DNA from: Robinsoniella peoriensis
GTDB lineage: Bacteria > Bacillota > Clostridia > Lachnospirales > Lachnospiraceae
Assembly (NCBI RefSeq): GCF_000797495.1
Contig: NZ_JTGN01000024.1
Span: 1 to 64,000, forward strand
Reading direction: 5' to 3'
Length of the DNA: 64,000 nt
Shown here: one piece after another, positions 14,903 through 56,233 of the stretch
Position numbering within the stretch: position 1 is the first letter of the stretch
Layout of the letters: every line of letters begins with the position of its first letter
Notes under the pieces: generated by a model
Told to the model about the DNA's origin: nothing
The model's input: only the letters and a program-made list of their open reading frames with translations
Databases searched by the model: none
Made by a program: the position numbers and the translations under genes

Positions 14903-17110
14903 TTACTCGAAAAACATATGCTCCATATAAAAATCGTTAAATTCTTTGTCACTGGATAGATTAATTTCCTTCGACAGATCTACCATACGTTCCATATCCC
15001 TGTCACCATCTTCGGATATAAAATAACGAATGGCACCGCCCAGACTGCTGTTTCCTACCGTCTGAATCTTATTTGCAAATTCCCTGGGAAGCATACCGAT
15101 CTGGAACGCCTTTTTCGTATCTATATGGAAACCAAATCCTCCTGCCAGATAAACCGTTTTTACCTGATCATAAGTTACACCATAGCGCAGGAGCAGCGTT
15201 TCTACTCCTCCTCTGACAGCTGCCTTGGCAAGTTGGATTTCCCTTACATCTTTTTGGGTAAATACTATGTTTTTCCCATCCGGTGTTTTAGCAATTGGAA
15301 ATCCGTCGTCAAAATAATCTTCATCCAAAAGCCCTGTCTCATCCACAAATTCTTCCCGTACAAGTTCCGCTGCTATCTCAATTACCCCCGTACCGCACAG
15401 GCCGATGGGCGGTTCGTTTCCAATGGTCTCCACCTCAGCTTTTTCTTTATCCAGACGGACACCGCAGACCGCACCTTTTACGCTGCCCATTCCCCAGGTA
15501 ATATTACCGCCTTCAAAAGCCGGTCCTGCCGCTGTGGAAGAAACCAGTATCTTATCCTTATTTCCCAGAGCCATCTCTCCGTTGGTTCCCAGGTCAACCA
15601 GAAGGCAGATATCTTCGCTTTTAAAAAAGTCACAAAAGTACATCCCGGATACAATATCCCCGCCAACGTAAGTAGAAATTCCAGGCAGCACTGCTAATTC
15701 ACAATCCAGCAGCCCACTCCCCATGATTTTTTCAAAAGGTTCTTTTATCATCTTAATGTTAACCGGTGTAAAAGGCACTACTCCAAGTGTTTCACAGGAA
15801 TAGCCCATCAGAAGATGCCCCATGGTTGTGTTGCATCCGATTACTACCTGCTCCACCTGCTTTGGGGAAATTCCCGTTTCTTTTATAATCTCGCGGATGC
15901 CGGTTAACAGATCCTGACGGATGGAAGCCTGCAGTTCTTTTTTCTTCCCGTCATTGGATGCCTGGATACGGGATATTACATCTGCTCCAAAACTTCTCTG
16001 TTTATTAATGGTAGAAAAGGAGTATACCACCTCCTTACTCTGTTTTCCGATCAGATTCAGGGCGATTGTAGTAGTTCCAATGTCAATGGCAATGCCAAAA
16101 GCAGTGTCATTTGATGCTCCTGAATCAGATTGTTTTCCTGAATAATCCGATACTATTTCAAAGTCTGACTCATCATTTCTGTCTAACGCAATCTTACAGT
16201 CTTCCTTGGGAAATGCCCTGCATGACAGCCGATAACCTTTTTCCAGCTCCTCTTTTGTGAATTTTTTTTCATCGGAAGGGGTTACATCAAGGCTGCCTTC
16301 CAGAAGCTGAATCTTACATTTACCACAGATTCCTTTTCCTCCGCATACCGCACTGAAATATACATCATGGGCTATCAGTGCATCTAATATACTCTGCTTT
16401 TCTGCACATGGTATCCGGTAGCTTTTTCCATTCTCAATTACTTCAATCATAACAGGTGCCACCTTTCTTAATTTACAATGCAGTGCACTGCATTTTCTAC
16501 AATCGTGCTGCATCCGGAATTCCTTTTCATCATCGGTTAAGACCAGTATCAGACAGGAGGTTTTTACCGGATCAAACATATATCCTGATGTGATGCCGAT
16601 CCCCAGCATTTCTTCCGCCCTGATCTGGCGGTGCATTACCTGCTGCATTTCCATAGGGATATCGTGAGGCGCTTCCAGACGCTTCTTTATACCCGCTTTT
16701 CGATTCGCACATTCTTCCCGCAAAACATCCTGCAGCGCATCTTCCATCTGAAACAGAAAACTGTCAGCCATGGCATCAATCAGCATCCCTTTCAGATAGT
16801 CTCCCTGTTGAAACATCAGGGTACTGTAGGCACTTACTTCCCTGCCAACGGTCGTCAGAACATATGCCGCCTGTTTTTCCCTTAGATTTATCTGCTTTGC
16901 TATCTCTTTTGGTACCTCATCGAATTTAATTAAAGCATGAGGATCTATTTTCCCATAAACGATCTCCTGAAGTTCCTCATATTCTTCCTCAACCTCTTCA
17001 TATATAGGGTTATCTTCCTTACAGTCTAGCAACTGCAGGACTACCTTTTTATCTATCCTGACATCGAATCCATCCAGACAGATAATCTCACCCTTTCTTG
17101 TTATCTGCAT
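14903..17110 (-). CDS. Corrinoid-activating protein: MetH-activation-like + [2Fe-2S] + ASKHA (DUF4445)
   Basis: 735 aa. Residues 1-215 resemble the B12-dependent methionine synthase activation domain and end in a Cys motif (C204, C207, C212). Residues 222-305 form a plant-type ferredoxin with Cys256, 262, 265 and 297. From about 337 an ASKHA/DUF4445 ATPase domain begins with GIAIDIGTTTIALNLI. The ferredoxin-ASKHA part is the RACE/RamA-like layout that reduces inactive Co(II) corrinoid proteins with ATP. The gene lies downstream of the corrinoid protein gene (17309-17947) on the same strand, which is its presumed target. The extra N-terminal domain may bind the cap face of the corrinoid protein; that is inference. 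Confidence 0.88.
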   Translation of the reverse strand: MQITRKGEIICLDGFDVRIDKKVVLQLLDCKEDNPIYEEVEEEYEELQEIVYGKIDPHALIKFDEVPKEIAKQINLREKQAAYVLTTVGREVSAYSTLMFQQGDYLKGMLIDAMADSFLFQMEDALQDVLREECANRKAGIKKRLEAPHDIPMEMQQVMHRQIRAEEMLGIGITSGYMFDPVKTSCLILVLTDDEKEFRMQHDCRKCSALHCKLRKVAPVMIEVIENGKSYRIPCAEKQSILDALIAHDVYFSAVCGGKGICGKCKIQLLEGSLDVTPSDEKKFTKEELEKGYRLSCRAFPKEDCKIALDRNDESDFEIVSDYSGKQSDSGASNDTAFGIAIDIGTTTIALNLIGKQSKEVVYSFSTINKQRSFGADVISRIQASNDGKKKELQASIRQDLLTGIREIIKETGISPKQVEQVVIGCNTTMGHLLMGYSCETLGVVPFTPVNIKMIKEPFEKIMGSGLLDCELAVLPGISTYVGGDIVSGMYFCDFFKSEDICLLVDLGTNGEMALGNKDKILVSSTAAGPAFEGGNITWGMGSVKGAVCGVRLDKEKAEVETIGNEPPIGLCGTGVIEIAAELVREEFVDETGLLDEDYFDDGFPIAKTPDGKNIVFTQKDVREIQLAKAAVRGGVETLLLRYGVTYDQVKTVYLAGGFGFHIDTKKAFQIGMLPREFANKIQTVGNSSLGGAIRYFISEDGDRDMERMVDLSKEINLSSDKEFNDFYMEHMFFE

Positions 17111-17308: not shown

Positions 17309-17947
17309 TTAATTGGCTAATACAGCTTTTTTAGCAACTTCGGCGCAGGTTGCTGCATCCGGTGTATAATAATCTGCTCCAATTTGTTCTGCAAAGCTTT
17401 CATTTACTGGCGCCCCACCAACCATTACGATATATTTATCACGGAGTCCTTTTTCTTTTAACTCATCAACTACAGTCTGCATATTCGGCATTGTTGTAGT
17501 CAGAAGTGCTGACATACAGATTAAATCTGCTCCAACTTCTTCTGCCTTATCAATAAATGCTGCCGGCTCTGCATCTACGCCGATATCATGAATTTCAAGA
17601 CCTGCTCCTTTTAACATCATTACTACAAGGTTTTTACCAATATCATGTAAATCACCTTTTACAGTACCAACAACGGCTTTCCCAACCGGTTCATTTCCAA
17701 CTTCTACAAGCTTTGGTTCCAGAATTGCCAATCCTGCGTTCATTGCTCTGGCTGCTACCAGTACTTCCGGTACGAAAACTTCATTATTTTTGAACTTTTC
17801 ACCGATGATCATCATTCCGGATAACAGACCTTCATTTAATACTGCCTTTGGATCTAAATTTTCATCAATTGCCTGCTGTACCAATGCTTTTACATTTTTT
17901 GCTCTTCCTTTTTGTAAAAAAGCTGAAATTTCTTCAATAATTGCCAT
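17309..17947 (-). CDS. Corrinoid protein of a methyltransferase system
   Basis: About 212 aa, the standard size for MtaC/MtbC/MttC-like corrinoid proteins. An N-terminal helical cap (1-85) is followed by a Rossmann-like B12-binding domain (86-212) with GDLHDIGKNLV, where His101 should coordinate cobalt. The later nucleotide-loop motifs MSALLTTTMPNMQ and VGGAPVNE are also present. A longer frame opens at 18046, but AAAAGGAGGATATTAGTC precedes the ATG at 17947, giving the family N-terminus. It would shuttle a methyl group between a substrate methyltransferase (none adjacent here) and a second methyltransferase; the UroD-like proteins elsewhere in the window are candidates for the latter. Confidence 0.92.
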   Translation of the reverse strand: MAIIEEISAFLQKGRAKNVKALVQQAIDENLDPKAVLNEGLLSGMMIIGEKFKNNEVFVPEVLVAARAMNAGLAILEPKLVEVGNEPVGKAVVGTVKGDLHDIGKNLVVMMLKGAGLEIHDIGVDAEPAAFIDKAEEVGADLICMSALLTTTMPNMQTVVDELKEKGLRDKYIVMVGGAPVNESFAEQIGADYYTPDAATCAEVAKKAVLAN

Positions 17948-18098
17948 GACTAATATCCTCCTTTTATTTGCCACTACATTTTTTATTACATCAGCTCTCC
18001 GCAAAGCTTCTGTAACTTGTATGTCCACAGTATAATTCATTTCCAATTTCTTTTTTTGTAATTATTTTAGATTCAATGTATTTTTTTTGCATTATGTA

Positions 18099-18237: not shown

Positions 18238-19488
18238 ATGACGCCATATCTCTATACTGTGGTTGAAAAAGAACATTTGACAGAAATGCTGGGAGCATTC
18301 CAGGCATGCGTTAATCTTCCTATTCAGGTAATCGATGAAAACGGTAAGATCCTGGAATCCTGTGGCGCAGAGACTTGTTTCTGCAACACTTTTAAAAAAC
18401 ATCTGCCTAAGGATGATAGCTGCGAACTGCTGCATATTAACGCCAGTAAGCGAGCCATAACGCTAGGGGAGACCTATATATTTTCCTGCCATGCAAATCT
18501 GAACCATATTGTATTTCCTCTGCTGAATAAAAACGCCTTCTTCGGTTCTATTCTCGTAGGACCTTTTTTAATGGATGTTCCGGATTCCCTTATGATTCTG
18601 GATATCGCAAAGCGCTATGAGATCCCTACCGAATCTCTTTTGGAGCTGTATGAGGAATCGAATTCCATTAAGGTAATTACACCTGCACATGTGACCCAGA
18701 TCAGTAAGCTGCTCTACTATCTGTTCTCAAGCCTGATTTCAGACAGCCGGCAGCAATTGATCATTAACCAGGGGAAATTACATCAGCAGTCAAAAATAAA
18801 TGAGTCGATTCAGATGTACAAATCATTTGGAGATGATGAAAAAGTCAGCTATCCTTATGAAAAAGAGAAAGAACTGATTACCAAGGTGAAGACAAAAAAT
18901 GTACCGGAGGCAAAAGGAATCCTCAACGACCTGTTAGGTTATGTACTATTTTCCGGCGGAAACAGCATGGATATCTTAAAATCCAGGGCAATAGAGCTGT
19001 GCTCCCTGCTATCCAGGGCTGCTATTGAAGGCGGTGCAGCAACGGACAGTATTTTAAAAATAAATAACCACTTTTTACAGAACCTTCAGAACATAAACAA
19101 TCTGGATGAACTGTGCTATAAGCTCCAGGAAAGCGTGGAAGTATTCACCGAATCCATGTTTAACTATATTCCTTCAAAAAACAATGAACTGATGAAGAAA
19201 GCAATTGCTTATATTTCCAAAAATTATTCTAAAAATCTTACTTTAGAAGAAGTGGCAAATGATGTACATTTAAATCCTGCCTACTTCTCTACGGTCTTTA
19301 AGCAGTCCTGCGGTTCTTCTTTTAAAGAATATCTGAATATGGTGCGGATTGAAGAAAGCAAACGGCTTCTGGCGAATACGGATTATTCCGTTATTGATAT
19401 TGCTATAGCTGTAGGATTTGAGGATCAGAGTTATTTTTCTAAAGTATTTAAAAAATATACCGGTTTGACTCCAAAGCAATACCGGTAA
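18238..19488 (+). CDS. PocR-domain AraC-family transcriptional regulator
   Basis: 416 aa. Residues 1-165 match the PocR ligand-binding domain (start YLYTVVEKEHLTEMLGAFQACVNLPIQVIDENGKIL, with CGAETCFCNTFKKH and CHANLNHIVFPL). The last about 100 residues are a double helix-turn-helix of AraC type (LTLEEVANDVHLNPAYFSTVFKQSCGSSFKEYL ... SVIDIAIAVGFEDQSYFSKVFKKYTGLTPKQYR). PocR domains respond to small organic ligands such as diols. Divergence from the corrinoid protein gene implies that it controls the corrinoid module. GGGAGGTAATAAC precedes the ATG. Confidence 0.88.
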   Translation: MTPYLYTVVEKEHLTEMLGAFQACVNLPIQVIDENGKILESCGAETCFCNTFKKHLPKDDSCELLHINASKRAITLGETYIFSCHANLNHIVFPLLNKNAFFGSILVGPFLMDVPDSLMILDIAKRYEIPTESLLELYEESNSIKVITPAHVTQISKLLYYLFSSLISDSRQQLIINQGKLHQQSKINESIQMYKSFGDDEKVSYPYEKEKELITKVKTKNVPEAKGILNDLLGYVLFSGGNSMDILKSRAIELCSLLSRAAIEGGAATDSILKINNHFLQNLQNINNLDELCYKLQESVEVFTESMFNYIPSKNNELMKKAIAYISKNYSKNLTLEEVANDVHLNPAYFSTVFKQSCGSSFKEYLNMVRIEESKRLLANTDYSVIDIAIAVGFEDQSYFSKVFKKYTGLTPKQYR

Positions 19489-39920: not shown

Positions 39921-40604
39921 TCAGCTGCTCTGGTTCGGGATATAAGTTCGTATCCTGCCCACGAATTCCGAAAAATTCTGTGTCTGCAGCACGACTCTTC
40001 CAGGTCCTGTGAGCCTTGTAATAAACAGGCCTTCCCCACCCAGGAAAATATTCATACCGCCGCGCATCATTTCCACCTCATACCGCACTGTGTTCTCAAA
40101 TGCCACTAAATTGCCGGTGTCAACCTTAAGAACTTCGCCTGGTGCCAGCACTTTTTCCACCTTATTGCCATCCACTTCTAAAAATGCCATGCCATTTCCG
40201 GACATTTCCTGCAGGATAAATCCTTCGCCGCCAAAGAAACCGGCTGACATTTTTTTCGTGAAGACAGCTTTGACATCCACCACGTTCTGTGCGCACAAAA
40301 ATGCACCCTTTTGGCAGATCAGGCTTCCATATGTACTTAAATCCACAGGCAGGATCTCTCCCGGAACCGTAGCCGAGAACCCTATGGTGACGCCATCCTG
40401 CATGGCAGAATAAGTGGTCATAAAAAAGGACTCCCCGGAAAACATCCGTCCCAATCCTTTCATAATCCCTCCACGGGCATTTGTAGACATCTCAATTCCT
40501 TCGCTCATCCAGGACATGCCGCCTGACTGGGTATAAATTGCTTCTCCCTGTCTGAGGCGCATTTCAACTGCCGGCATAACCTCTCCTATCAATCTGTATT
40601 CCAT
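39921..40604 (-). CDS. AIM24 / TIGR00266 family protein
   Basis: 227 aa, a beta-sandwich protein of the AIM24 (TIGR00266) family: starts MEYRLIGEVMPAVEMRLRQGEAIYTQSGGMSWMS, with the glycine-rich GGIMKGLGRMFSGESFFMTTY and later GGEGLFITRLTGPGRVVLQTQ. It is full length. Molecular function is unknown; membrane-associated roles have been suggested for relatives. ATAAGGAGGTCAAAGGT precedes the ATG. It is a single gene, flanked on both sides by 9-bp tandem repeats. Confidence 0.88.
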   Translation of the reverse strand: MEYRLIGEVMPAVEMRLRQGEAIYTQSGGMSWMSEGIEMSTNARGGIMKGLGRMFSGESFFMTTYSAMQDGVTIGFSATVPGEILPVDLSTYGSLICQKGAFLCAQNVVDVKAVFTKKMSAGFFGGEGFILQEMSGNGMAFLEVDGNKVEKVLAPGEVLKVDTGNLVAFENTVRYEVEMMRGGMNIFLGGEGLFITRLTGPGRVVLQTQNFSEFVGRIRTYIPNQSS

Positions 40605-40639
40605 ACCTTTGACCTCCTTATATAATATAAAATTGCAGT

Positions 40640-40666
40640 TATCTTCTCTATCTTCTCTATCTTCTC
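40640..40666. repeat. Three-unit 9-bp tandem repeat (TATCTTCTC)
   Basis: Three perfect consecutive TATCTTCTC units lie about 36 bp upstream of the AIM24-like start codon, in its probable promoter or leader region. Confidence 0.85.
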
Positions 40667-40704
40667 TTTCCCAACCAGTTTACCATGTCCGGATATAAAT
40701 TTCC

Positions 40705-40750
40705 ATAAAAATAAGAGCTCCTCCCCATATTCATTCGGGGGAACAGCTCT
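40705..40750 (-). terminator. Terminator of the methyltransferase-thioredoxin cluster
   Basis: On the minus strand, AGAGCTGTTCCCCC pairs with GGGGAGGAGCTCT and is followed by TATTTTTATGG. It ends transcription from the cluster 40821-45407. Confidence 0.8.
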
Positions 40751-40766
40751 CACTTATCTTCTACTC

Positions 40767-40816
40767 AGAGTGTGTTATCAAACTGTCTTTTGACAGCTTT
40801 ACGCCACACTTTATGG
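40767..40816. repeat. Palindromic intergenic repeat, half copy C
   Basis: A 50-bp sequence starting AGAGTGTGTT and containing TGACAGCTTTACGCCACACTTTATGG aligns along its length with the left arm of copy A (32516-32565). The right arm and centre are missing. It ends 4-5 bp from the stop codon of the UroD-thioredoxin gene. Confidence 0.7.
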
Positions 40817-40820
40817 AATA

Positions 40821-42176
40821 TTAACAGCTTTTTTTATCCACTGCTGCCTGGAAACATGCGGTCAGCTCCGCATTATCCGGCAGAATACTCTCGTATTTCA
40901 CTTCGCCGTCCACGCAGATCGTCGGTACATTCTTAGCACCTAATTTCATCATACAGGCAACGCCCTCTTTTTCTTTGATCTTATGCTCGATGATCTTTAC
41001 TTTATCACCAAGTGGTGCAGCTGCAGTATAAACTGCTTCCATATTGTACTGACATGCAGCACAGGATTCAGAATCCAGTGTAATACAGTCTATAATAACC
41101 TGTTTTTCACTTGCATAATCCGGTAATTCATAGTCTACACCAGCCATAACGTCTTCGCCTTCAAAAATCTCTTCAATATTGCCGTGCACAGTGCTGGTAA
41201 CAGCCTGAACGTTGGCAACCGGGGTTGCATAAGGCATATCACAGCCAGGAGCCAGAATGTATCCTTTTTTGCCACCGATATTCATACAGTTTGTAGCATC
41301 CCGCACGTTGTCATAAGGAGTACCAAACAGCATGGTCAGCGTCAGCTTGATATTTCCTCCAACTGATACATTGTATGGTTTACAGGTTTCCACTACGTAC
41401 TCCAACGGAATATTCTCGTCAATGGAGATGTTGTCGCAATGGGTCTGGCACATCGCTTCAATATTACGTTTTGCATTTCCGCATACGAAGAAGGAGCCTA
41501 ATTTGCCTCTTTCACGGATATAATCAAATACAGGAGTTACATAAGGCGTTACAAATTCTTCGAAGTTATCCGGAGAAATCTGGGATGTCATAGGATCTAC
41601 GATTGCCACGATATCCACACCTGCATCAATATACATTTTAGCAGTATTGATTGCTACCTTCTGGCAGAATTCCATCAATTCTTCCACTTCTTCCGGTTCA
41701 TCTAACATATCATAAAAGATGTCGGTTCCTTTTAAATGAAGTGCCAGGGTAAACGGACCTGTGATTAATCCGTAAACTGCACATTTATCACCAATTGCTT
41801 CCACAATACGTCTTGTGGCTTCCATTGCTATAGGGAAACGTCCGTCTTCCTCTGTAGGAATCTTCAAATCTTCCAAGGTCTTACCCTGCTCTAAGATATG
41901 GCTGGATACTGCCGGAGGGTTATCTTTTGCATACGTCAGGTTACATCCCATTGCTTCTGCTTCCAGCTGAAGGTCAAATAACGCGGGAATGCCATCCGGC
42001 TGATACAATTCTACTGCTTTTAATACACCATTTACGATATGGTCTGCGCTTTTAAAAAACTCCTCACAATTTACATCTATCAGACTTGCTGCATGGCATC
42101 CTACAAAAGGAACCCAGGGTATACGGTCAACTTCTTTGCACTGCATTGCACGAAAAACTAATTCTCTTGAATTCAT
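40821..42176 (-). CDS. UroD/MtaA-type methyltransferase fused to a thioredoxin-like domain
   Basis: 451 aa. Residues 1-345 are a UroD/MtaA/CmuA TIM barrel; residues 355-451 are a thioredoxin-like domain with CAAC (Cys372, Cys375) and a cis-Pro segment NVPTICVDG. In MtaA the zinc site is HxC plus a later Cys. Here the HxC position reads FFVCGN (Cys232, no His) and the later Cys is kept in APGCDMP (Cys312). It is therefore probably a corrinoid- or thiol-dependent methyltransferase with altered metal ligation, not a haem-pathway decarboxylase. AAGGAGAATTAATAGA precedes the ATG. It is the last gene of the lipoyl/CobW/LplA/DUF5714 cluster, 200 bp after the ligase gene. Confidence 0.85.
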   Translation of the reverse strand: MNSRELVFRAMQCKEVDRIPWVPFVGCHAASLIDVNCEEFFKSADHIVNGVLKAVELYQPDGIPALFDLQLEAEAMGCNLTYAKDNPPAVSSHILEQGKTLEDLKIPTEEDGRFPIAMEATRRIVEAIGDKCAVYGLITGPFTLALHLKGTDIFYDMLDEPEEVEELMEFCQKVAINTAKMYIDAGVDIVAIVDPMTSQISPDNFEEFVTPYVTPVFDYIRERGKLGSFFVCGNAKRNIEAMCQTHCDNISIDENIPLEYVVETCKPYNVSVGGNIKLTLTMLFGTPYDNVRDATNCMNIGGKKGYILAPGCDMPYATPVANVQAVTSTVHGNIEEIFEGEDVMAGVDYELPDYASEKQVIIDCITLDSESCAACQYNMEAVYTAAAPLGDKVKIIEHKIKEKEGVACMMKLGAKNVPTICVDGEVKYESILPDNAELTACFQAAVDKKSC

Positions 42177-42227
42177 TCTATTAATTCTCCTTTTTGTAAT
42201 TTATTGTCTACTGTTCCATTATACCGT

Positions 42228-42307
42228 CTGTCAGAATTTATTTAAAAATCCTTTCTGACAGTTGTGCGCTTCATACGCTCTGATGCCGCCTGCGGATTAA
42301 CGGCATC
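42228..42307. repeat. Two hairpins with degenerate copy D of the palindromic repeat
   Basis: CTGTCAGAA (42228) pairs perfectly with TTCTGACAG (42253-42261), and GATGCCG (42282) with CGGCATC (42301-42307). The stretch 42246-42275 resembles the left arm of the family repeat (AAAATxxCTTTCTGxCAGxTGTGCG). It lies in the 200-bp gap upstream of the UroD-thioredoxin gene. Confidence 0.5.
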
Positions 42308-42376
42308 AACCATACACTCATTATACCAGCATGTCAAAATATTTTTTGAAATAATCATAGTAATTTGGTAATTATT

Positions 42377-43375
42377 TTAGTAAAAACACTCCATCAGTTC
42401 TTCTTTTGTAATATTGCCAAAATACTTTACAAGAGGTGTGTGGTCCAAAATTCCTTCCACCGCCTCCCGCCTGTATTCCAAACCCCTTAGCTGATCTTCA
42501 AGATCAGAGGCCGGACAGAGTGCAAGGAAATCACCGCTGATTTTACATTCGGTAATCCTGCCCTTCTTTATCAGCATCTCCACCGTCACTTTTCCATTTG
42601 TAAACCGCTTTTCTTTTCTGTGGTTAAACATAGGGGACCTGCCGTAATTCCAATCCCTGGAGACATATTTATGAAGTGCCAGTTCTTCCGCAGCGGCAAT
42701 GATCTCCGGTGTAATTGTTACCCTTGTGATCCCTCCTGCTTCCTTTTCAAAATATGTGCGCAGGTAATCCCGAAATTCCAGTACACTCATCCTTGGATCA
42801 TTCAGGTAGTCCCTTATATTTCCAATCCTGCTTCTCACCGACTTCACACCTTTTGAAGATAACTTGTCCTGACTGACCTTTAAGAGTTCCCCTGCCATGG
42901 CAAGATCTGCATCAAATAAAAGCGTACCATGATGAAGTATCCGGTTTCGATGCTGAGCCTGGGCATTGCCGGATATCTTTTTCCCATCTGCGGTAATATC
43001 GTTTCTGCCGCTTTTCACAGCCGGAATTCCCAATGCCTGCAGTGCATGAATGACTGGGTTCAGAAATCTCTCATAGGATATATCCACTTCCTCATTCGCA
43101 GTGGTAATAAATGAAAAGTTCATATTCCCCAGATCGTGGAAGACGGCTCCCCCTCCGGTATTTCTGCGCACTACTTTTGTGCCGTGCTTCTCTACTGCTT
43201 CTTCATTTATTTCTTCCAGAGTATTCTGGTGTTTGCCAATGATGATACTGTTTTCATTCTGCCATAACATCAGAATGTCAGCATCCGGATCCCCTGCTAT
43301 GTTTTGATAAAACAAATACTCTTCCAGCGCCAGATTTTTATAGGGGTCCGTAAATGGACTTTCCACATACAACAT
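42377..43375 (-). CDS. lplA: Lipoate-protein ligase (LplA family)
   Basis: About 332 aa. Starts MLYVESPFTDPYKNLALEEYLF, the family N-terminus. The lipoyl-AMP site is visible as VRRNTGGGAVFHDLGNMNFSF, and the conserved lysine region as DITADGKKISGNAQAQHRNRILHHGTLLFD; a C-terminal accessory domain completes it. AGGAAATGGT precedes the ATG at 43375; an alternative ATG at 43408 overlaps the CobW stop. It attaches lipoate to lysine with ATP; the obvious local acceptor is the 101-aa lipoyl-domain protein two genes upstream. Confidence 0.93.
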   Translation of the reverse strand: MLYVESPFTDPYKNLALEEYLFYQNIAGDPDADILMLWQNENSIIIGKHQNTLEEINEEAVEKHGTKVVRRNTGGGAVFHDLGNMNFSFITTANEEVDISYERFLNPVIHALQALGIPAVKSGRNDITADGKKISGNAQAQHRNRILHHGTLLFDADLAMAGELLKVSQDKLSSKGVKSVRSRIGNIRDYLNDPRMSVLEFRDYLRTYFEKEAGGITRVTITPEIIAAAEELALHKYVSRDWNYGRSPMFNHRKEKRFTNGKVTVEMLIKKGRITECKISGDFLALCPASDLEDQLRGLEYRREAVEGILDHTPLVKYFGNITKEELMECFY

Positions 43376-43400
43376 ACCATTTCCTAACTGCCTGGTATCA

Positions 43401-44366
43401 TTATTCATATATCTCACACGCTTCCATACAGGTTGATTTCCAGGTATCTTCCAGTCTCTCTTCAAATTCCTCCGGTCCACTGCCGATAACTACCAGTTTT
43501 GTATGCGTGATCACATCCCTTTTACCGGCTTTAAAAGGTTTTATGTCCAGATAATCCCCTACGGAATCTACCTGTATCCATCCCTCCTGCGTTTCTGCAA
43601 TACCTTTGATCCGCAAGGCCAGGGGCTGCATTTTCTTCACGAACTGCTCTAAAGCTGTCTTATTTACTTGTGTCCCGCATTCCAGGGAATAAGTAGCCGG
43701 CCGGTTCCATGGCTGATTACTGGTCTCACCCACATATCCGTTATCAATCAGTTTTTCATCCAGTAGCCCCAGCGGGACCTGTGCAAACATCGTTTCATAC
43801 AGGTATGCTTCCGGATTTAATTCATGTATTTTTTCTTTTATTTTTTCTATAGTCACCTGATTCACCAGATCCACTTTATTAATCACAATAAAATTACTGG
43901 TTGCAATCTGGTTCTGCACCGGTGCCAATACCTGCACATGCCTAAGAAACGTAACACTGTCCGTAATGCAGACTGCTCCACGGTACTGATAGGGGCGGAA
44001 TTTAGAATCTTCCCTGGAATGGCTCACCATACTTTCCATCTCCTGCAACAGTAAATGCATATTAGAAGGATCCGCCATTCCTGAATTCTCAATGAGCAGG
44101 ATATCAATTTCTTCCTTAGAAAACCCAATGAGCGTCTTTACAAATCCCCCTTTTAAGCAGGCACAGAAAATAGAGCCGTTGTTGATCTCTACTAATTGAA
44201 TGCCCTCTTTTTCTACCAGCATGCCGTCAATTCCCAGGCTGCCGAATTCATTAATAATGACTCCAATCTTCTTATCCGGCAATGCCTGCAGGAGTTTCTG
44301 CAAAAAGGTTGTCTTTCCCGCCCCCAGAAATCCTGATATCAGATATAAATCAATCTCTTTTTTCAT
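43401..44366 (-). CDS. G3E-family (CobW-like) GTPase / metallochaperone
   Basis: 321 aa. P-loop GFLGAGKTTFLQKLL, switch region INEFGSLGIDG, NKVDL base-recognition motif, and a C-terminal CobW domain from about residue 220. The metal-binding CxCC of classical COG0523 proteins is altered to FCACLKGG (Cys-Ala-Cys-Leu). Its start overlaps the lipoyl gene end by 4 bp (ATGA). Such GTPases deliver metals or assist cobalamin enzymes; here it may load zinc or another metal into the adjacent UroD-type methyltransferase. A second CobW gene pairs with another UroD gene at 51760. Confidence 0.88.
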   Translation of the reverse strand: MKKEIDLYLISGFLGAGKTTFLQKLLQALPDKKIGVIINEFGSLGIDGMLVEKEGIQLVEINNGSIFCACLKGGFVKTLIGFSKEEIDILLIENSGMADPSNMHLLLQEMESMVSHSREDSKFRPYQYRGAVCITDSVTFLRHVQVLAPVQNQIATSNFIVINKVDLVNQVTIEKIKEKIHELNPEAYLYETMFAQVPLGLLDEKLIDNGYVGETSNQPWNRPATYSLECGTQVNKTALEQFVKKMQPLALRIKGIAETQEGWIQVDSVGDYLDIKPFKAGKRDVITHTKLVVIGSGPEEFEERLEDTWKSTCMEACEIYE

Positions 44367-44668
44367 TCCTGCTCCTTTCCATCCTCGATATAGCCCAGTA
44401 TCTCCTGGTATGCAAACTCTTCTTCATCTTCGATACAAATCTCACACAGGATACCGCTGCAGGGTGCCGTAAATTCCAACGCCTTTTTTTCTACTTCTCC
44501 CTCGCATACAGTCTCCCCTTCTTCAACTGCTTCCCCTATCTCTTTCAGCCAGGTCAGCGTACCCGTTTTAAAAGTCAGGTTCACCGGGCGGTCCTGACAC
44601 GGACATGGGTGCACCGGATCCTTTTTTGGCATTGCCTTTTTCGGTACGGTTATTTCAATTCTTGACAT
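44363..44668 (-). CDS. Stand-alone lipoyl-domain protein
   Basis: 101 aa. Residues 25-95 form a biotinyl/lipoyl-type beta-hammerhead: LKEIGEAVEEGETVCEGEVEKKALEFTAPCSG, in which Lys62 (EVEKKA) matches the lipoylated lysine of E2 domains (ETDKA). The N-terminus carries a HPCPCQ motif (Cys22, Cys24), and Cys55, 70 and 75 add to an unusually high Cys count. It is not part of a 2-oxoacid dehydrogenase or glycine cleavage operon. Neighbours are a G3E GTPase (overlapping by 4 bp), a lipoate ligase and a methyltransferase-thioredoxin fusion. AGGAGGAAATT precedes the ATG. Biotinylation is the alternative, but the presence of LplA favours lipoate. Confidence 0.85.
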   Translation of the reverse strand: MSRIEITVPKKAMPKKDPVHPCPCQDRPVNLTFKTGTLTWLKEIGEAVEEGETVCEGEVEKKALEFTAPCSGILCEICIEDEEEFAYQEILGYIEDGKEQE

Positions 44669-44681
44669 AATTTCCTCCTGG

Positions 44682-44833
44682 AACGTGTATTAAAATTGAT
44701 TGATGACAACTGCGCCACACTTTATTAGAGATAAGTACCAAATGAAGGGCACATAGCGGGCTATGTAACCTGAATTTGGTGCTAATATACCGCGAAGCGG
44801 GGTGTGCAGATGGCTGGAATGCCTACTCAAAAT
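44682..44833. repeat. Palindromic intergenic repeat, full copy B
   Basis: About 152 bp forming a long imperfect hairpin homologous to copy A. The centre reads CCAAAT-GAAGGGC-ACATAGC-GGG-CTATGT-AACCTG-AATTTGG, against CCGGAT, GCGTAGC, CTACGT and ATTCGG in copy A. The two paired positions that differ changed on both sides and still pair. The right arm covers the stop codon and last codons of the DUF5714 gene. Confidence 0.85.
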
Positions 44834-45407
44834 ATGGACAAGCTTTTCCCTTACACTCTTTATTGTTTTTATAGTATTTGCAAGTAACCTTTTCCGGCTT
44901 TTCCAGTTCAATCCCAAGGTATTCCCGGATACTTTCCGCCGCACTTTCTAAAGCCAGATAAGTATTCCGCTTGCAGCATCTGGGTCCGTCCACACCGGAG
45001 ATAGCAAGAAGAGCCTTGCCTACTCCATGGTTGGTCCATGCCCAGGTTCCCTTAGACAGTGGTGTTGTCTGGGTATAAATGCTCAGGAAGATTCCCACTC
45101 CCACAGCAGCACCGCAGGAGCCATAGAGTCCGCAAAACCCGCCAAGTACATTTTTAGCCCTGGACAGCGCTTCCCTTAAATCCTCTTTGAGAATCTCTAT
45201 CTCATCCCCTTCTTCCTTATGGCAGGCGGTTAAAAGCACCCCCGGCATGAGATAGTGGTGGGGCGGGCAGTGCATGGGAAGTCCATCAAGATCCATCAGT
45301 TCTTCCGCCAGCTCCCAGATTGTCTTGTTTTCATCTGATTCATAATATGTAATTAGTTTCTCTGTCATCTTATCATAATAAACATCTAATTCACTGTAAT
45401 TTCCCAT
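44823..45407 (-). CDS. DUF5714 protein
   Basis: About 194 aa, DUF5714. Typical segments: DLDGLPMHCPPHHYLMPGVLLTACHK, GFCGLYGSCGAAVGVGIFLSI and GPRCCKRNTYLALE, ending in a Cys cluster CKYYKNNKECKGKACPYF. About ten cysteines suggest metal or Fe-S binding. The family is often found beside corrinoid methyltransferase genes and has no established function. The start at 45407 follows AAAGGGTAAAGTAT; an ATG at 45425 is possible. It is the first gene of the lipoyl/CobW/LplA/UroD-thioredoxin cluster. Confidence 0.8.
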   Translation of the reverse strand: MGNYSELDVYYDKMTEKLITYYESDENKTIWELAEELMDLDGLPMHCPPHHYLMPGVLLTACHKEEGDEIEILKEDLREALSRAKNVLGGFCGLYGSCGAAVGVGIFLSIYTQTTPLSKGTWAWTNHGVGKALLAISGVDGPRCCKRNTYLALESAAESIREYLGIELEKPEKVTCKYYKNNKECKGKACPYFE

Positions 45408-45526
45408 ATACTTTACCCTTTGCATATAGCACGCGTCCTGCTATCCTGCCCTTTCTGTATTTATTATAAACTCACTGCCCGGATTAAAAAAGTAAAAAAC
45501 CTGGATTATTGGGAAAATTTTTAGAT

Positions 45527-45742
45527 TTAAGATAAATTTAAAACAGAAAAGCTGATTATCTGCTCTTTGCTGAATACCTGCCCTCGATGCGAATACAGGA
45601 AATAGAACAGGTCAAACTTTTTAGCAGTCAGATATATCTCTTGTCCTTTGTTATTCGTAAAGATTCTAGTAAATGGGTCTATGGAAAACTCATGGCTTTG
45701 CTCTGTAAGAATAGAGGGAACACAGATTAAATTTTCAGACAA
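45527..45742 (-). pseudogene. Truncated winged-helix (response-regulator C-terminal) fragment
   Basis: 71 codons from a TTG. Residues 17-62 resemble the OmpR/PhoB winged helix (FSIDPFTRIFTNNKGQEIYLTAKKFDLFYFLYSHRGQVFSKEQI), but the recognition helix and wing are lost; the frame ends in unrelated ISFSVLNLS. It marks the left edge of the AT-rich foreign segment. Confidence 0.7.
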
Positions 45743-45747
45743 ACAAA

Positions 45748-46485
45748 TTATTTTAGTAATTGAGATGTGTTTTCACATCTAATCAACGAAACACCGTACG
45801 GTGTAAACGATAATTCCATATCCCATGTTTCTACTCCCTTTTCAATAGCATTGCTCATTGCATTATACACTTCTCTGTAGTGTGTGCTTTTTTGATGTGA
45901 TTTGGGGCAAGTGATTTTGTATTGGTAAACAGTCAACAAAATTGCTCTCTCTTGTTCTTTTAATAAATTGGCTAACGCATTAATGTGTTTTGTAAAACGC
46001 TCTGTAGATGAAAAAGGTGTAATTGGCTTCGTTTTGATACCTGTTCCATATTTTGCATGAATTGTAGTTAATGGTGTTTTAACTTCAATGTATGTATTAT
46101 CAACAAGAATATCTAATTTGGAATTTCCAAGAGGAACTTCACGTTTTATATTTTCATATCCAGAAATCATATTGCCTAATTGATGAGTGATTAAAAAATA
46201 TTCCACTAACTTGTTTGATAAAATTTGATTTATACCTATCCAGTTCTTTTCTTTTGTATCAAGTTCATCACAAGAAATTGCTTCCACAGTATATAGTAAT
46301 TTCCTTTTAGTATTATTACTTTGAGATACTAAACAAGAAATGTTTTTTACATCTATATCACCGATACGCCCTGTTGTCGGACAATGACATTTCACAATCT
46401 TATCATCTAATAAAACATCCATTGTAAACTGACTGTTGCGTTTCAAAATTATTCCTTCTTGAAGTGGAGTGGTAAATGAATACAT
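45748..46485 (-). CDS. sfsA: SfsA-family DNA/RNA nuclease
   Basis: 245 aa, SfsA family: N-terminal OB-like part with KIVKCHCPTTGRIGDI, and a nuclease-like C-terminal half with KLDILVDNTYIEVKTPL (D...ExK catalytic pattern) and the AILLTVYQY strand. SfsA was first linked to sugar fermentation genes in Escherichia coli and later to nuclease activity. The gene is AT-rich compared with the cluster genes on either side and overlaps the PPOX gene (TAATG), so the pair is probably co-expressed cargo of the foreign segment. Confidence 0.8.
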   Translation of the reverse strand: MYSFTTPLQEGIILKRNSQFTMDVLLDDKIVKCHCPTTGRIGDIDVKNISCLVSQSNNTKRKLLYTVEAISCDELDTKEKNWIGINQILSNKLVEYFLITHQLGNMISGYENIKREVPLGNSKLDILVDNTYIEVKTPLTTIHAKYGTGIKTKPITPFSSTERFTKHINALANLLKEQERAILLTVYQYKITCPKSHQKSTHYREVYNAMSNAIEKGVETWDMELSFTPYGVSLIRCENTSQLLK

Positions 46486-48221: not shown

Positions 48222-48487
48222 TAAAAATGCCCGTAAATCCTATAGAATAAGGATTAGCGGACATATAAAAAGTTATAAAGAGATAATCAAAATCTTATTT
48301 TAAATTCATAGAAATTTTACTAAAAATCCAAAATTATGAAAATATCCCTGCTGCCGGAAACGCTATAATATATGTAGAAACAGCAGATTCCGTTTAGGAT
48401 CAGGTTTATATACATCCTGACAAACTTAACCCTGCTTACTGATGCAGGAATAAATTTTAAACAAGCTCATGAATGGAGGAGATTATC
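48222..48487 (+). promoter_or_regulatory. Leader and promoter region of the HyuA-UroD-CobW set
   Basis: The region holds no gene. TATAAT at 48364-48369 is a plausible -10. Between it and the start codon are two hairpins: GTTT-TCAGG / CCTGA-AAAC (48392-48425) and CCTGC/GCAGG (48431-48448). A further perfect hairpin AATCCT/AGGATT lies near 48236-48256, at the edge of the integrase remnant. No known riboswitch consensus was recognised. Confidence 0.4.
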
Positions 48488-50494
48488 ATGATTGGAATTG
48501 GCATTGACACAGGGGGCACTTATACAGATGCTGTCATCTATGATTTGGAGAACAAACAGATATTAGAAAGCGCAAAATCCCTGACGACAAAAAGCCGCCT
48601 GGAAACAGGCATTACAAATGTACTGGAAAAGTTATCACAGACAGCTCTTCAGTCTGCATCGTTTATGGCACTGTCTACAACCCTTGCCACAAATGCCTGC
48701 GTGGAAGGCAAAGGCGGACGGGCTAAGCTAGTATTTATCGGGGTGAATCCCGGAACGGTAGATGAGACTTATCTCTCTTACGGGCTGCCTCCCTCCCGGG
48801 AAATATATTTTATGGATGGTGATCCGGCTGATGCACTGCGCCCTGAGATAAAGCCGGACTGGGTCAAATTCCGCCAGGATATCCGCACCTGTTTTACCGA
48901 TTGTGACAGCATAGCCGTGGTGCAGATTCATCCCAAAGACAACGGTGCTGCTTATGAAAAAACGGCTCTTCAGATTATTACGGAGGAACTGGATGTCCCA
49001 TGTATTACAGGTTACGAACTGTTCCATGACCTAAACGTCCTGCGCCGGGGTGCCAGTGCCCTGTTAAACGCCCGGCTGATGCCGGTAATGAAGGAATTTT
49101 TCAAGGCAATCAAAGTTTCACTTGAAAATCTGGGGCTGTCTCTTCCTATCGTAATTGTTAGAAGCGACGGTTCGCTCATGTCCCAGGGATTTGCCTCCAC
49201 AAGGCCGGTGGAAACGCTGTTATGCGGTCCGGCTGCCAGCGTAATGGGCGGCGTGGAACTGGCGGATGAAGAAAATGCCCTGATCGTGGATATGGGGGGT
49301 ACGACTTCTGATATCGCCATTGTGAAAAACCATACCCCCGTTACCGTCCGGGAAGGAATCCAGATCGGGATCTATAAAACCTTTGTGAAGGGCCTGTATG
49401 TAGATACTTTCGGCCTGGGCGGCGACAGTGCCATCCGCTATGAAAACGGCAGGCTCTATCTGGATACGGAACGGGTTATCCCCCTTTGTACCCTTTCTTC
49501 CCAGTTCCCTGGCGTGCTGGCACAGCTGGAAGAATTAAATCAGACGGGCAAGCCCCACAGCCATTTCCTCCACGAGTTCTTTGTATTAATGAAAGAACCC
49601 AGGAACAAAAGCAGCTACACACAGGTAGAACTGGACTTTTGCTCTGCTCTGTCAGATGGTCCCCTGATTTTTACAAAAGCGGCCGCAGCCATTCATAAGG
49701 ATACTTATAACTTCAGTATGAAACGGCTGGAACAGGAAGGAATTGTCATGCGTTCCGGTCTTACGCCAACTGATATTATGCATATCCGAAAGGACTACAC
49801 GCCCTTTGACCGGAAGGCTTCCGTGCTGGGCGCAGAGTTCATAGCCCGCTCCGTGGAGATTACAGCGGACCGTCTGACCGATAAAGTCTACCATCTGGTA
49901 AAAAAGAAACTTTACTGCAACCTTGTACGCATCCTGCTAAGCGACCATAATTCCACAAAGCATAAACACCTGAACCCGGATATGCTGAACAGCCTGATTG
50001 AAGAAAGCTACGAAGATGCCGTAACCCATGAAACGTCCAGTTTCTTTTCCACACAGTTTCAGACCCATGCTACGCTGATTGGCGTTGGTGCCCCGATCCA
50101 CATCTTCTTAGAGGACGTGGCAAAACTGCTGGGCACAAAAGCCGTCATTCCCAGAAATGCAGCCGTAGCAAATGCACTGGGTGCCGTGGTAGGTAATGTA
50201 TCTGCATCTTACGATGTAGAGATCAAACCACTTTACGACTCATCCGATTTGACCGGTTACCAGGTCTTCACGCGAAGCGGATGCCTGAGCTTTAAAGATT
50301 ACGATGCCGCCAGGGAAACAGCCATTGAAGAAGCACTGGATGGCGCCAGATCAGAAGCTTACCAGAGAGGGGCTGTAGGAGAAATCACAACATCTTACGA
50401 AAGCAGCATTTCTGAGGCTGCAATTGGGGAAAACAACTTATTCCTGGGTGAAATGATTGTGGGCCATGCCATAGGCAGAATTATTTCCCTATAA
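48488..50494 (+). CDS. Hydantoinase/oxoprolinase A-family protein (HyuA-like), stand-alone
   Basis: 668 aa. ASKHA-type fold signatures: MIGIGIDTGGTYTDAVIYD, ALSTTLATNACVEGKGGRAKLVFIG, RSDGSLMSQGFASTRPVETLLCGPAASVMGG and IVDMGGTTSDIAIV. The family usually works with a HyuB subunit, which is absent here. The next genes are a UroD-type methyltransferase and a CobW GTPase, so the ATPase-like fold may serve a methyl-transfer or cofactor-reactivation step, not hydantoin hydrolysis; that is inference. GGAGGAGATTATC precedes the ATG at 48488. Confidence 0.85.
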   Translation: MIGIGIDTGGTYTDAVIYDLENKQILESAKSLTTKSRLETGITNVLEKLSQTALQSASFMALSTTLATNACVEGKGGRAKLVFIGVNPGTVDETYLSYGLPPSREIYFMDGDPADALRPEIKPDWVKFRQDIRTCFTDCDSIAVVQIHPKDNGAAYEKTALQIITEELDVPCITGYELFHDLNVLRRGASALLNARLMPVMKEFFKAIKVSLENLGLSLPIVIVRSDGSLMSQGFASTRPVETLLCGPAASVMGGVELADEENALIVDMGGTTSDIAIVKNHTPVTVREGIQIGIYKTFVKGLYVDTFGLGGDSAIRYENGRLYLDTERVIPLCTLSSQFPGVLAQLEELNQTGKPHSHFLHEFFVLMKEPRNKSSYTQVELDFCSALSDGPLIFTKAAAAIHKDTYNFSMKRLEQEGIVMRSGLTPTDIMHIRKDYTPFDRKASVLGAEFIARSVEITADRLTDKVYHLVKKKLYCNLVRILLSDHNSTKHKHLNPDMLNSLIEESYEDAVTHETSSFFSTQFQTHATLIGVGAPIHIFLEDVAKLLGTKAVIPRNAAVANALGAVVGNVSASYDVEIKPLYDSSDLTGYQVFTRSGCLSFKDYDAARETAIEEALDGARSEAYQRGAVGEITTSYESSISEAAIGENNLFLGEMIVGHAIGRIISL

Positions 50495-50684
50495 CCTTTC
50501 AATGATTGTATTTAGTAATTTTTTTCGATAATCCAAAGTTATACCCTTTATAGTATATTATCATTTCAGTATGAATTCCATATTTTTTACAAATTTTCTA
50601 TGTTTTTTTCTAAAATTTTGTTTTGAAATATTCTATACTTTGCTCATGAAAATGAAACGGCGAGTACTGTTACCAGCGTAATCA

Positions 50685-50704
50685 CAGCTGGATAGAGCAC
50701 CTGA
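50685..50704 (+). other. 20-nt tRNA D-arm-like sequence
   Basis: CAGCTGGATAGAGCACCTGA is the D-loop to anticodon-stem sequence common to several bacterial tRNAs. The 5' half of the D-stem (GCTC) is replaced by TCAC, and no anticodon, T-arm or acceptor stem follows, so it is not a tRNA. It sits in the leader of the UroD gene at 50736. Confidence 0.35.
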
Positions 50705-50735
50705 ACCGGAACAAATAGAAAGCGGGGTATTTATT

Positions 50736-51773
50736 ATGAATTCTATGGAACGTGTAGTCACTGCATTGCAGCACAAAGAACCAGACCGGGTACCGGTTTA
50801 TCCCATCATCAGCGGAGCTTCCAGAAGGCTGATCGGTGCATCTTATAAGGACTGGTCCAACGATGCTGATATCTGTGCGGAAGCATTGTTAAAAGCAAAG
50901 GAAGAATTTGACCTGGATTGTATCGTAACACTCATTGACCTCTCCATTGAATGTGATGCATGGGGACAGGAACTGGTCTATCCGGAGGACGAAGCGGCAC
51001 ATCCTAATTACAACAACTGTGTCGTTCAGGAAATCGAGGACTATGCCAAGATAAAAAAAGTGGATTACCGTACATCAAAACGTATGATGATGCACATTGA
51101 TACCTGTAAGAAACTGGTAGAAGCTGCTAACGGCGAATACCCGGTGGTCGCTTTTGTCTTCGGTCCACTGGGAACGCTTTCCATGCTCCGTAACCAGCAG
51201 GATATGTATATGGATCTCTATGACGATCCGGATGCCGTACATGATGCTGCGAGGGAAGTAAACGAAACCCTGAAGGATTACTGCAACGCACTCATGGACA
51301 CCGGAGTCAACGGTATTATGTTCGACACGCTGTTCTCATCCGGGGCAATTATGAGTAAAACCATGTGGATGGAAATGGAAGGGGATCTTGTAAAAGAACT
51401 GGCTGATGTGGTTCATGCCAGAGAATGTCTGGTAATGATTCACAACTGCGGGCAGAAAATATATTTTGACGCTCAGATAGAAACAATGAATCCCACGGCA
51501 ATCTCCTTCCTTTATCCGCCGGATGACTGTGCAGATTTTCAGGAATGCAAAGCTAAATACGGCGATAAGGTTACCCTGATCGGCTGCGTTACTCCTGCAA
51601 GTGCGGTTATCGGAACCGATGAGGAGTGGGATCTGGAATGTAAAAACAACATTGATGCCATGGCAAAAGGCGGCGGCTTTATGTTGGCGACCGGCTGTGA
51701 ATACCCCGCAAATGCCTCATTTGACCGGGCAAAGCGCATGGTAGATATTGCAAAAACTTATGGCCGTTATTGA
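50736..51773 (+). CDS. UroD/MtaA-family methyltransferase
   Basis: 345 aa, UroD-type TIM barrel starting MNSMERVVTALQHKEPDRVPVYPII. The MtaA-type zinc ligands are all present: HNC (His236, Cys238) and Cys321 in LATGCEYPANAS. This points to a zinc-dependent methyltransferase moving a methyl group between a corrinoid protein and a thiol or tetrahydrofolate, and away from haem synthesis. It overlaps the CobW-like gene by 14 bp. It follows the HyuA-like gene after a 241-bp AT-rich gap that may hold its own promoter. Confidence 0.88.
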   Translation: MNSMERVVTALQHKEPDRVPVYPIISGASRRLIGASYKDWSNDADICAEALLKAKEEFDLDCIVTLIDLSIECDAWGQELVYPEDEAAHPNYNNCVVQEIEDYAKIKKVDYRTSKRMMMHIDTCKKLVEAANGEYPVVAFVFGPLGTLSMLRNQQDMYMDLYDDPDAVHDAAREVNETLKDYCNALMDTGVNGIMFDTLFSSGAIMSKTMWMEMEGDLVKELADVVHARECLVMIHNCGQKIYFDAQIETMNPTAISFLYPPDDCADFQECKAKYGDKVTLIGCVTPASAVIGTDEEWDLECKNNIDAMAKGGGFMLATGCEYPANASFDRAKRMVDIAKTYGRY

Positions 51774-52701
51774 TCTGATCACCGGATTTTTAGGCGCCGG
51801 TAAAACTACATTTATTAAATACTATGCCGATTACCTGATCCGCATCGGGGAATCTGTGACAATTATAGAAAACGAATTTGGTGCTGCTGGGGTAGATACC
51901 GCTTTTCTCCAGGGCCGGGGGTTAAAAATCAATCAGCTTACAGGTGGCTGTATCTGCTGTTCCCAGAAAGTCAATTTTCATGATATGCTGCTGGAACTGT
52001 CCCATCAAGGCTGCTCCCATATTATTGTGGAACCCTCTGGCATATATAATATGGACGAATTTTTTGATATTGTGAACAGCCCTGCCGTCCGGTCCTGCTG
52101 CAAAGTGGGAAGCATTCTGACCATTGCTGATCCGCATCCTCTGACTGACCTGTCGGAGGATGCAATGTATATTATGTATTCCCAGCTGTTGAATACCGGA
52201 AAGGTAATTTTAAGTAAAACGGGGAATGTAACTCCCGAAGAGATCTTATCTTCTATTGCAGATTTAAATGATCTCATGAAGCATTACAAAAGTGACCGGA
52301 TATTTGGAACGGACGTCTGTATCAAAAACTGGTCTGATTTTACGGATGATGATTTTGAAAGTTTTCGAAACGTCGGCTGTCAGGCTCACTGGCACGAAGA
52401 GAAACGCTTTGACCACAGCCGCCTCTATTCCAGCACTACCCTTGCCGATTTCTGTCAGAATGAGGCAGACCTCCTTCATGCATTGAAACAGATTATGAGT
52501 GGGCGCTGTGGCTATATACTCCGCATAAAAGGCTATATTCCCACTCTGGACGGCAATTGTTACGAAGTGAATTGTTCCGCAAACGAATTACTCGTCACTT
52601 CCTGCCGTCCCCGAGATGCATTGCTGAATATTATTGGAAAAGACATCAACCGTAAAAAAATAAAGGAATATTTTGTCGGAATGCCAAAAGTATCATCTTG
52701 A
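51760..52701 (+). CDS. G3E-family (CobW-like) GTPase / metallochaperone
   Basis: About 313 aa. P-loop GFLGAGKTTFIKYY, a classical CxCC metal motif in GGCICCSQKV, the switch segment IENEFGAAGVDTAFL, and a C-terminal CobW domain. The ATG at 51760 lies inside the end of the UroD gene, so the two are translationally coupled. Together with the pair at 40821/43401, this is the second UroD-CobW association in the window. It probably supplies zinc or another metal to the methyltransferase. Confidence 0.88.
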   Translation: MAVIDLITGFLGAGKTTFIKYYADYLIRIGESVTIIENEFGAAGVDTAFLQGRGLKINQLTGGCICCSQKVNFHDMLLELSHQGCSHIIVEPSGIYNMDEFFDIVNSPAVRSCCKVGSILTIADPHPLTDLSEDAMYIMYSQLLNTGKVILSKTGNVTPEEILSSIADLNDLMKHYKSDRIFGTDVCIKNWSDFTDDDFESFRNVGCQAHWHEEKRFDHSRLYSSTTLADFCQNEADLLHALKQIMSGRCGYILRIKGYIPTLDGNCYEVNCSANELLVTSCRPRDALLNIIGKDINRKKIKEYFVGMPKVSS

Positions 52702-56206: not shown

Positions 56207-56233
56207 TTTAAGCCCCCTTTTATGATATCTCCC

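Follow-up and report, generated by a model that had tools for sequence, protein, structure and literature searches.

What does a stand-alone lipoyl protein do beside a methyltransferase with the fold of MtaA (methylcobalamin:coenzyme M methyltransferase)? This question is raised by five genes in a 64,000-nucleotide stretch of Robinsoniella peoriensis DNA (assembly GCF_000797495.1, contig NZ_JTGN01000024.1, positions 1 to 64,000; hereafter the window), which encode a methyltransferase–thioredoxin fusion (UroD-Trx), a lipoate-protein ligase (LplA), a CobW-type GTPase, a small lipoyl protein (Lip) and a DUF5714 protein. We read the cluster as a corrinoid methyl-transfer module with a dedicated but optional thiol-redox arm, the lipoyl arm, and give this reading a probability of roughly 45%. 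Open reading frame and domain checks of the window placed all five genes on the minus strand between 40821 and 45425:

40821..42176, minus strand: UroD-Trx, an MtaA-fold methyltransferase (residues 1–335) with a CxxC thioredoxin domain (about 355–451)
42377..43480, minus strand: LplA, lipoate-protein ligase, with a likely start at the ATG at about 43408
43401..44366, minus strand: CobW/G3E GTPase (Pfam cobW, 1e-36)
44363..44668, minus strand: Lip, a stand-alone E2-like lipoyl carrier of 101 amino acids, with Lys61 as the predicted lipoyl lysine
44823..45425, minus strand: short Cys-rich DUF5714 protein with an all-helical model (Pfam DUF5714, 5e-60)

The five minus-strand frames described by an initial annotation of this DNA are all present at its positions, and the identities that it gave to the lipoyl protein, LplA, the CobW-like GTPase, the DUF5714 protein and the UroD–thioredoxin fusion were upheld by Pfam matches. 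Its DUF5714 boundary at 45407 is an inner ATG, whereas the reading frame itself reaches 45425. The barrel of UroD-Trx matched URO-D (2e-67), LplA matched LplA-B_cat (1e-69) and passed TIGR00545 (405.3 vs a cut-off of 280 bits), and Lip matched Biotin_lipoyl (PF00364, 6e-8) above its cut-off. The match of the UroD-Trx C-terminus to Thioredoxin_3 (1.3e-4) was under the curated cut-off (22.3 vs 24.8 bits), but we kept the thioredoxin assignment because the CxxC motif was invariant in all 56 aligned fusions. The Lip and CobW frames share 4 nt. A promoter and terminator scan of 40500–46000 gave sites no commoner than in shuffled sequence. These identities, like the fold, conserved residues and recurrent linkage described below, are read from the sequences.

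The AlphaFold model of UroD-Trx (pLDDT 93.1, pTM 0.87) was closest to MtaA of M. mazei (4ay8; VIA Z 42.9, rmsd 2.0, 325 aligned residues), indicating the MtaA barrel fold over residues 1–335. The second-best structural family was UroD (Z 37), and the top sequence match in the PDB was again MtaA (4ay7). UroD-Trx is 24% identical to MtaA and differs from it by the added C-terminal thioredoxin domain. When the two were aligned at what we take to be the zinc-ligand positions of MtaA, Cys232 and Cys312 occupied both Cys-ligand positions, and Phe230 stood at the His-ligand position. F230, C232, C312, C372 and C375 were invariant among the 56 aligned fusions, so that the His-Cys-Cys zinc site of MtaA has Phe in place of His in every one of them. 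The scores were also below the curated cut-offs of TIGR01463 (170.8 vs 235.4) and NF040654 (149.5 vs 400 bits). Since both the His ligand and the model score fail, UroD-Trx was not classed as an MtaA; it is probably the second methyltransferase, in the MtaA position, of a corrinoid system.

The gene neighbourhood of UroD-Trx relatives was surveyed in two sets. A search of 398 genomes of the phylum with the thioredoxin domain gave 25 with a match, 20 of them (the window genome included) at 1e-12 or better; 20 stretches were taken from 18 of these 20 genomes, with G450 and some second matches left out. To these we added the best 80 of 494 candidate UroD-Trx loci from a scan of genome contigs, which by record title came mostly from Firmicutes and marine Bacteroidetes, together with Neiella, an Armatimonadetes metagenome-assembled genome (MAG) and others. 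After removal of three duplicates (L043, L050 and L094, identical over a 200-amino-acid segment), 97 loci remained besides the window, spanning up to 10 kb on each side, some less. CobW was the commonest neighbour, lying within three genes of UroD-Trx in 76 of the 97 loci. A corrinoid protein was present in 56, and a RACo-like gene in 32, a count that takes in Met_synt_B12-type activation proteins. Nine loci (L067, L069, L071, L072, L073, L075, L076, L077 and L078) have a separate Thioredoxin_3-like protein of about 92 amino acids directly after UroD-Trx, one of which was checked against Pfam.

The window itself holds corrinoid genes, 23 kb from UroD-Trx:

14903..17110, minus strand: RACo-type reductive activator of corrinoid proteins
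17309..18046, minus strand: MtaC-type corrinoid protein, the likely partner of UroD-Trx, with a likely start at the ATG at about 17947
18238..19488, plus strand: PocR/AraC-type regulator adjoining MtaC

The MtaC-type protein is 86% identical to the corrinoid protein of the cluster at locus L061, and regulators matching the PocR/AraC type of the window were found in 26 of the 97 UroD-Trx loci.

The lipoyl identity of Lip rests on its PF00364 match, on a profile search of the PDB in which the matches were E2 lipoyl domains, and on an alignment to an E2 lipoyl domain whose ETDK lysine, the one in the hairpin turn of the lipoyl fold, falls on Lys61. The GcvH model PF01597 gave no match to Lip at 0.01. 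Lys61 was kept in all six Lip orthologues, whereas position 62, which the initial annotation had named as the lipoyl lysine, is K, K, N, K, T and Q (the last two by eye); the modified residue is thus predicted to be Lys61. We do not take Lip for a biotin carrier or an ordinary E2, since its matches are E2 lipoyl domains and its genome has no E2 match. Full-length Lip is rare. In 200 genomes of the bacterial family, eight others matched Lip, seven of which were judged by weak, partial alignments only; the best of the eight, L003, lies by eye among LplA- and LipA-like genes and was set aside as a short lipoyl domain of the ordinary kind. Among 25 chosen genomes, ten had some match and three, the window genome included, a full-length one. 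Of 391 genomes of the class, 63 matched at 1e-6, and three of these matches were strong and near full-length (the window genome, G806 and G977); among the remaining ones G823 was opened, which has an ordinary E2-type lipoyl protein and no UroD-Trx. A further full-length Lip was found beside DUF5714 in G513.

In all six genomes with full-length Lip, a DUF5714 gene for about 200 amino acids directly precedes Lip, and UroD-Trx is present. G599, G612 and G513 had been chosen because they have UroD-Trx, and only G806 and G977 were found without that knowledge; for scale, 20 of the 398 phylum genomes, a sample separate from that of the class, had a strong thioredoxin-domain match. The complete five-gene set recurred at one of the 97 loci, L064 of a Lachnospiraceae MAG, where DUF5714, Lip, CobW, an Lpd-like reductase, a short LplA and UroD-Trx stand in a row; the reductase sits between CobW and LplA, and the Lip protein is 64% identical to that of the window. 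Other carriers adjoin UroD-Trx elsewhere. GcvH directly follows it in L048 and L054, and neither GcvT nor GcvP was recognised in those stretches. A GcvH-like protein lies near UroD of a putative selenocysteine type and Trx in L058, L059 and L060. In L060, LipA-like, LplA-like, Lpd-like and two GcvH-like genes surround the split UroD and Trx, and L059 has the same lipoyl gene set minus the LplA-like gene; the LipA call in both was made by eye, Pfam giving radical SAM only. Large E2 proteins lie farther from UroD-Trx in L109, L114 and L117. In total, a search with a few seed sequences detected a lipoyl gene at 9 of the 97 loci (6 of 97 without the large E2 proteins), always on the UroD-Trx strand. 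The full set in L064, the DUF5714–Lip pair in six of six genomes, fusions of DUF5714 to CobW beside UroD-Trx in L061 and L062, and the other carriers beside UroD-Trx together support a linkage of the cluster genes beyond chance adjacency.

Several results weigh against the reading of the lipoyl arm as a dedicated part of the module. With the same seeds, no lipoyl gene was detected at 88 of the 97 loci, and the neighbourhood check suggested by the initial annotation found recurrence of the full set at one other locus only. Among the chosen genomes, full-length Lip occurred in just 2 of the 24 others screened. The constant neighbour of Lip is DUF5714, not UroD-Trx, and the DUF5714–Lip pair stands apart from UroD-Trx in four of the six genomes. 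Conversely, DUF5714 is found beside UroD-Trx without Lip in five (L061, L062, L131, L134 and L135) of the six loci that have it, and the genomes of these five loci contain no full-length Lip. The Lpd-like protein of L064 (393 amino acids) scored 273.8 against the lipoamide dehydrogenase cut-off of 408.8. Twenty arbitrarily chosen 19-kb regions from six genomes contained no lipoyl carrier, a sample too small for a statement on enrichment. With counts too small for enrichment, what carries the argument is that the genes are adjacent, share a strand and recur in separate groups. One of the control regions, L250 (G505:C1:300000-319000), has several URO-D-like genes and a corrinoid protein.

It was also considered whether Lip and LplA merely ride along, the ligase being there for glycine cleavage and Lip vestigial or unmodified. 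The genome assembly (7.39 Mb, 98.3% complete, 6.4% contaminated) has one GcvH match (PF01597), on contig C17, in a gcvT-H-PA-PB-lpd operon that reads as full (genes other than gcvH by eye), and no 2-oxoacid dehydrogenase E2 match. Thus, the earlier statement that the surroundings lack 2-oxoacid dehydrogenase and glycine cleavage genes is true for the locus, but the genome does encode glycine cleavage elsewhere. The LplA of the cluster is the single LplA/LipB-type ligase match of the genome. These facts, and the presence of DUF5714 with UroD-Trx without Lip in the five loci named above, would agree with a passenger role. However, L064 keeps partners and order, with LplA and the Lpd-like gene in between, Lys61 is kept in six of six orthologues, and Lip tracks both DUF5714 and UroD-Trx. 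A passenger role is therefore improbable; with a single ligase and a glycine cleavage operon in the genome, LplA probably serves GcvH as well as Lip.

DUF5714 raises another explanation, in which sulfur or a soft metal reaches DUF5714 and CobW on the lipoyl arm, and this arm would thereby build or repair the metal site of UroD-Trx. Such a sulfur-carrying function has been proposed for the lipoate-binding protein of the sHdr pathway. Seven cysteines of DUF5714 (C98, C104, C150, C151, C182, C191 and C196) were invariant in 24 aligned sequences, and C24, C55 and C78 of Lip in four aligned orthologues. The top four structural rows for the DUF5714 model were all the Fe-S enzyme CyuA (cysteine desulfidase). 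The position of DUF5714 before Lip and the DUF5714–CobW fusions also fit such a function. On the other hand, the CyuA rows are weak (Z 6.2–7.3, rmsd about 5), and the best of them (Z 7.3, rmsd 4.8, 156 aligned) is under the safe level of the tool for helical folds; we treat CyuA as a lead. By eye, C55 is lost in Lip of G977 and C78 in that of G806, and none of the cluster genes was recognised as one for sulfur transfer. We thus consider a sulfur or metal carrier doubtful.

DUF5714 proteins occur in other settings as well. DUF5714 was found in 6 of the 97 UroD-Trx loci. No lipoyl match was obtained at the fourteen loci with longer DUF5714 forms (L198–L211) or at the DUF5714 loci L193–L197, of which L193 has a short form in a genome with UroD-Trx. 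A genome-level link of all DUF5714 proteins with UroD-Trx was rejected: DUF5714 was present in 51 and UroD-Trx in 20 of the 398 genomes, and the five shared genomes (G000, G259, G275, G339 and G513) are near the about 2.6 expected by chance.

In the redox reading that we prefer, UroD-Trx would exchange methyl groups between the corrinoid protein (MtaC, 17.3–18.0 kb) and a thiol-type acceptor, and RACo (14.9–17.1 kb) would reactivate MtaC. The barrel would use a site that keeps the two zinc-ligand Cys (C232 and C312, the latter possibly selenocysteine in some lineages) and has Phe for His. LplA would attach lipoate to Lys61 of Lip, and Lip would be reduced by a dihydrolipoyl dehydrogenase, encoded in the cluster in L064 and possibly provided here by the glycine cleavage operon. 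The dihydrolipoyl arm would then give electrons to DUF5714, to the CxxC of the Trx domain, or to both, which may hold the thiol/metal site in the reduced state during metal loading by the CobW GTPase. Because the constant neighbour of Lip is DUF5714, electrons, or alternatively metal or sulfur, may reach the methyltransferase site through DUF5714 and CobW. What we infer in this scheme is that Lip is lipoylated, which way electrons flow, which metal is involved and which proteins are direct partners. PMC8945050 provides a precedent, the mycobacterial Lpd–lipoyl protein–AhpD–AhpC chain (Bryk 2002), in which a lipoamide protein likewise passes electrons from NADH to the thioredoxin-like CxxC protein AhpD. 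The target of that chain is a peroxidase, whereas here it is proposed to be a corrinoid methyltransferase or DUF5714, and the carrier would be a dedicated small protein.

The initial annotation had instead proposed that UroD-Trx passes methyl or C1 groups to the dihydrolipoyl thiol of Lip, a tethered counterpart of coenzyme M that the Trx domain re-reduces. The barrel is MtaA-like, the known acceptor of MtaA is a thiol, and three kinds of carrier adjoin the enzyme: Lip in the window and L064, a GcvH-like protein in L058–L060, and GcvH in L048 and L054. As a general acceptor, however, lipoate is not supported, given a lipoyl gene at 9 of 97 loci, a DUF5714–Lip pair apart from UroD-Trx in four of six genomes, and DUF5714 without Lip in five of six loci. 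The zinc-ligand His of MtaA is lost, and no gene taking methyl off lipoate was noticed, although no search was aimed at one. Since the lipoyl arm is optional, comes in three kinds and has Lpd-like partners in some loci, an interchangeable electron donor fits better than an obligatory methyl acceptor. The acceptor idea is thus possible though quite unlikely, and less supported than the redox-partner reading. It is similarly unlikely, if a little less far-fetched, that the lipoyl arm acts in corrinoid methyl transfer directly in either form, as a tethered methyl acceptor or as a dithiol metal or sulfur carrier for the site. If it did, different lipoyl carriers would have been drawn to one UroD-Trx enzyme in three separate groups, and this enzyme would be one that uses selenocysteine at a metal-ligand position in some lineages.

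This selenocysteine is a prediction from the Cys312 codon, which in six genomes is an in-frame TGA with homology continuing past it: G339 (L043 = L133), G983 (L136), G474 (L056), G390 (L058), G505 (L059) and G433 (L060). The context is PGU-DMPY or PGU-DMPF, and UroD and Trx are separate genes in L056, L058, L059 and L060. SelB was above its curated cut-off in all six genomes, whereas the window genome had no SelB above it. Folding for bacterial selenocysteine insertion sequences (bSECIS) gave stems 3' of the TGA in L133 and L136 and weak ones in L058 and L060, but two Cys homologues gave similar energies, and SelB is the better support for selenocysteine. We regard UroD-type methyltransferases with TGA at the Cys312 position as candidate selenoproteins. 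Two selenoprotein reviews do not use the word "uroporphyrinogen" anywhere in their main text.

The genes beside UroD-Trx vary: MttB was found in 5 and MtrH in 2 of the 97 loci, and a gene of the MtaB cluster (one member checked against Pfam) within two genes of UroD-Trx in four. The first methyltransferase therefore seems to vary while the corrinoid protein, UroD-Trx and CobW stay constant, and the neighbours suggest that the methyl groups come from methanol, from methylamines and perhaps also from methyl sugars. The marine Bacteroidetes loci L098 and L115 have, by eye, genes for P450, ferredoxin and alcohol dehydrogenase, and L094 has genes of the same clusters; enzymes of these three kinds serve methyl-sugar demethylation. 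In L094, L098 and L115, UroD-Trx, a corrinoid protein and a URO-D-like gene lie near genes of the porphyran methyl-galactose type (by eye), which hints at an anaerobic counterpart of that system. At 48473–52701 (plus strand), the window encodes a hydantoinase/oxoprolinase-like protein, a second CobW-like GTPase and a URO-D protein in which both the HxC and the C of MtaA are present. At 54465–60621 (minus strand), a DUF2284 protein and two URO-D-like proteins, possibly O-methyl-sugar demethylases, stand beside a sugar-type ABC transporter (by eye). The glycine cleavage operon (L141, G000:C17:74000-92000) also has a sugar-type ABC transporter and two URO-D-like genes directly before it, and downstream are genes for a pterin-type methyltransferase-like protein and a corrinoid protein (all by eye).

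Among the known systems close to UroD-Trx are the Mlps of type 1 mlp clusters. According to Kountz and Balskus (PMC10418091), they are likewise bacterial and MtaA-like and are encoded with a corrinoid protein and an activase, and S- or Se-methyl chemistry is proposed for them. In the same source, S-methyltransferases have a His-Cys-Cys site that Mlps keep, several Mlps1 excepted, whereas UroD-Trx has Phe-Cys-Cys, which argues against its placement in a type 1 mlp cluster. None of the words lipoyl, lipoate, CobW, DUF and fusion appears in the main text of that paper, and thioredoxin appears a single time, in the title of a cited work. The GcvH-related lipoyl proteins of NF045810 are also stand-alone carriers; the model matches both GcvH-like proteins of L060 below its cut-off (61.9 and 118.1 vs 150), and the Lip proteins tested differ from this family in matching E2 lipoyl domains. 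MbdU, a metal-binding double selenoprotein (NF045648), has a DUF5714-type region that the window protein matched at 2e-30, but the model spans 468 positions and the window protein, with 200 amino acids, reached 105.9 bits against a cut-off of 600. A literature search found no title or abstract that joins lipoyl proteins to corrinoid methyltransferases of the UroD type; it did not cover the two papers on selenoprotein neighbourhoods likeliest to bear on the matter (Haft and Gwadz 2023; Haft and Tolstoy 2025). The single parts are known, and a description of their combination was not found among these titles and abstracts. Nor was an assigned acceptor found for the UroD-Trx family, whose members here come from Firmicutes, from marine Bacteroidetes and from a small number of further groups.

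Lipoate serves in 2-oxoacid dehydrogenases, glycine cleavage and sulfur oxidation, and a corrinoid methyltransferase with a linked lipoyl carrier would extend this list. Relatives of the cluster point to a role of lipoic acid in one-carbon chemistry that has gone unrecognised and is probably a redox one. The candidate selenocysteine at the metal-ligand position would be a sharp handle on the chemistry of UroD-Trx. Given the methyl sources that its neighbours suggest, the UroD-Trx module may bear on one-carbon flow in anaerobic habitats.

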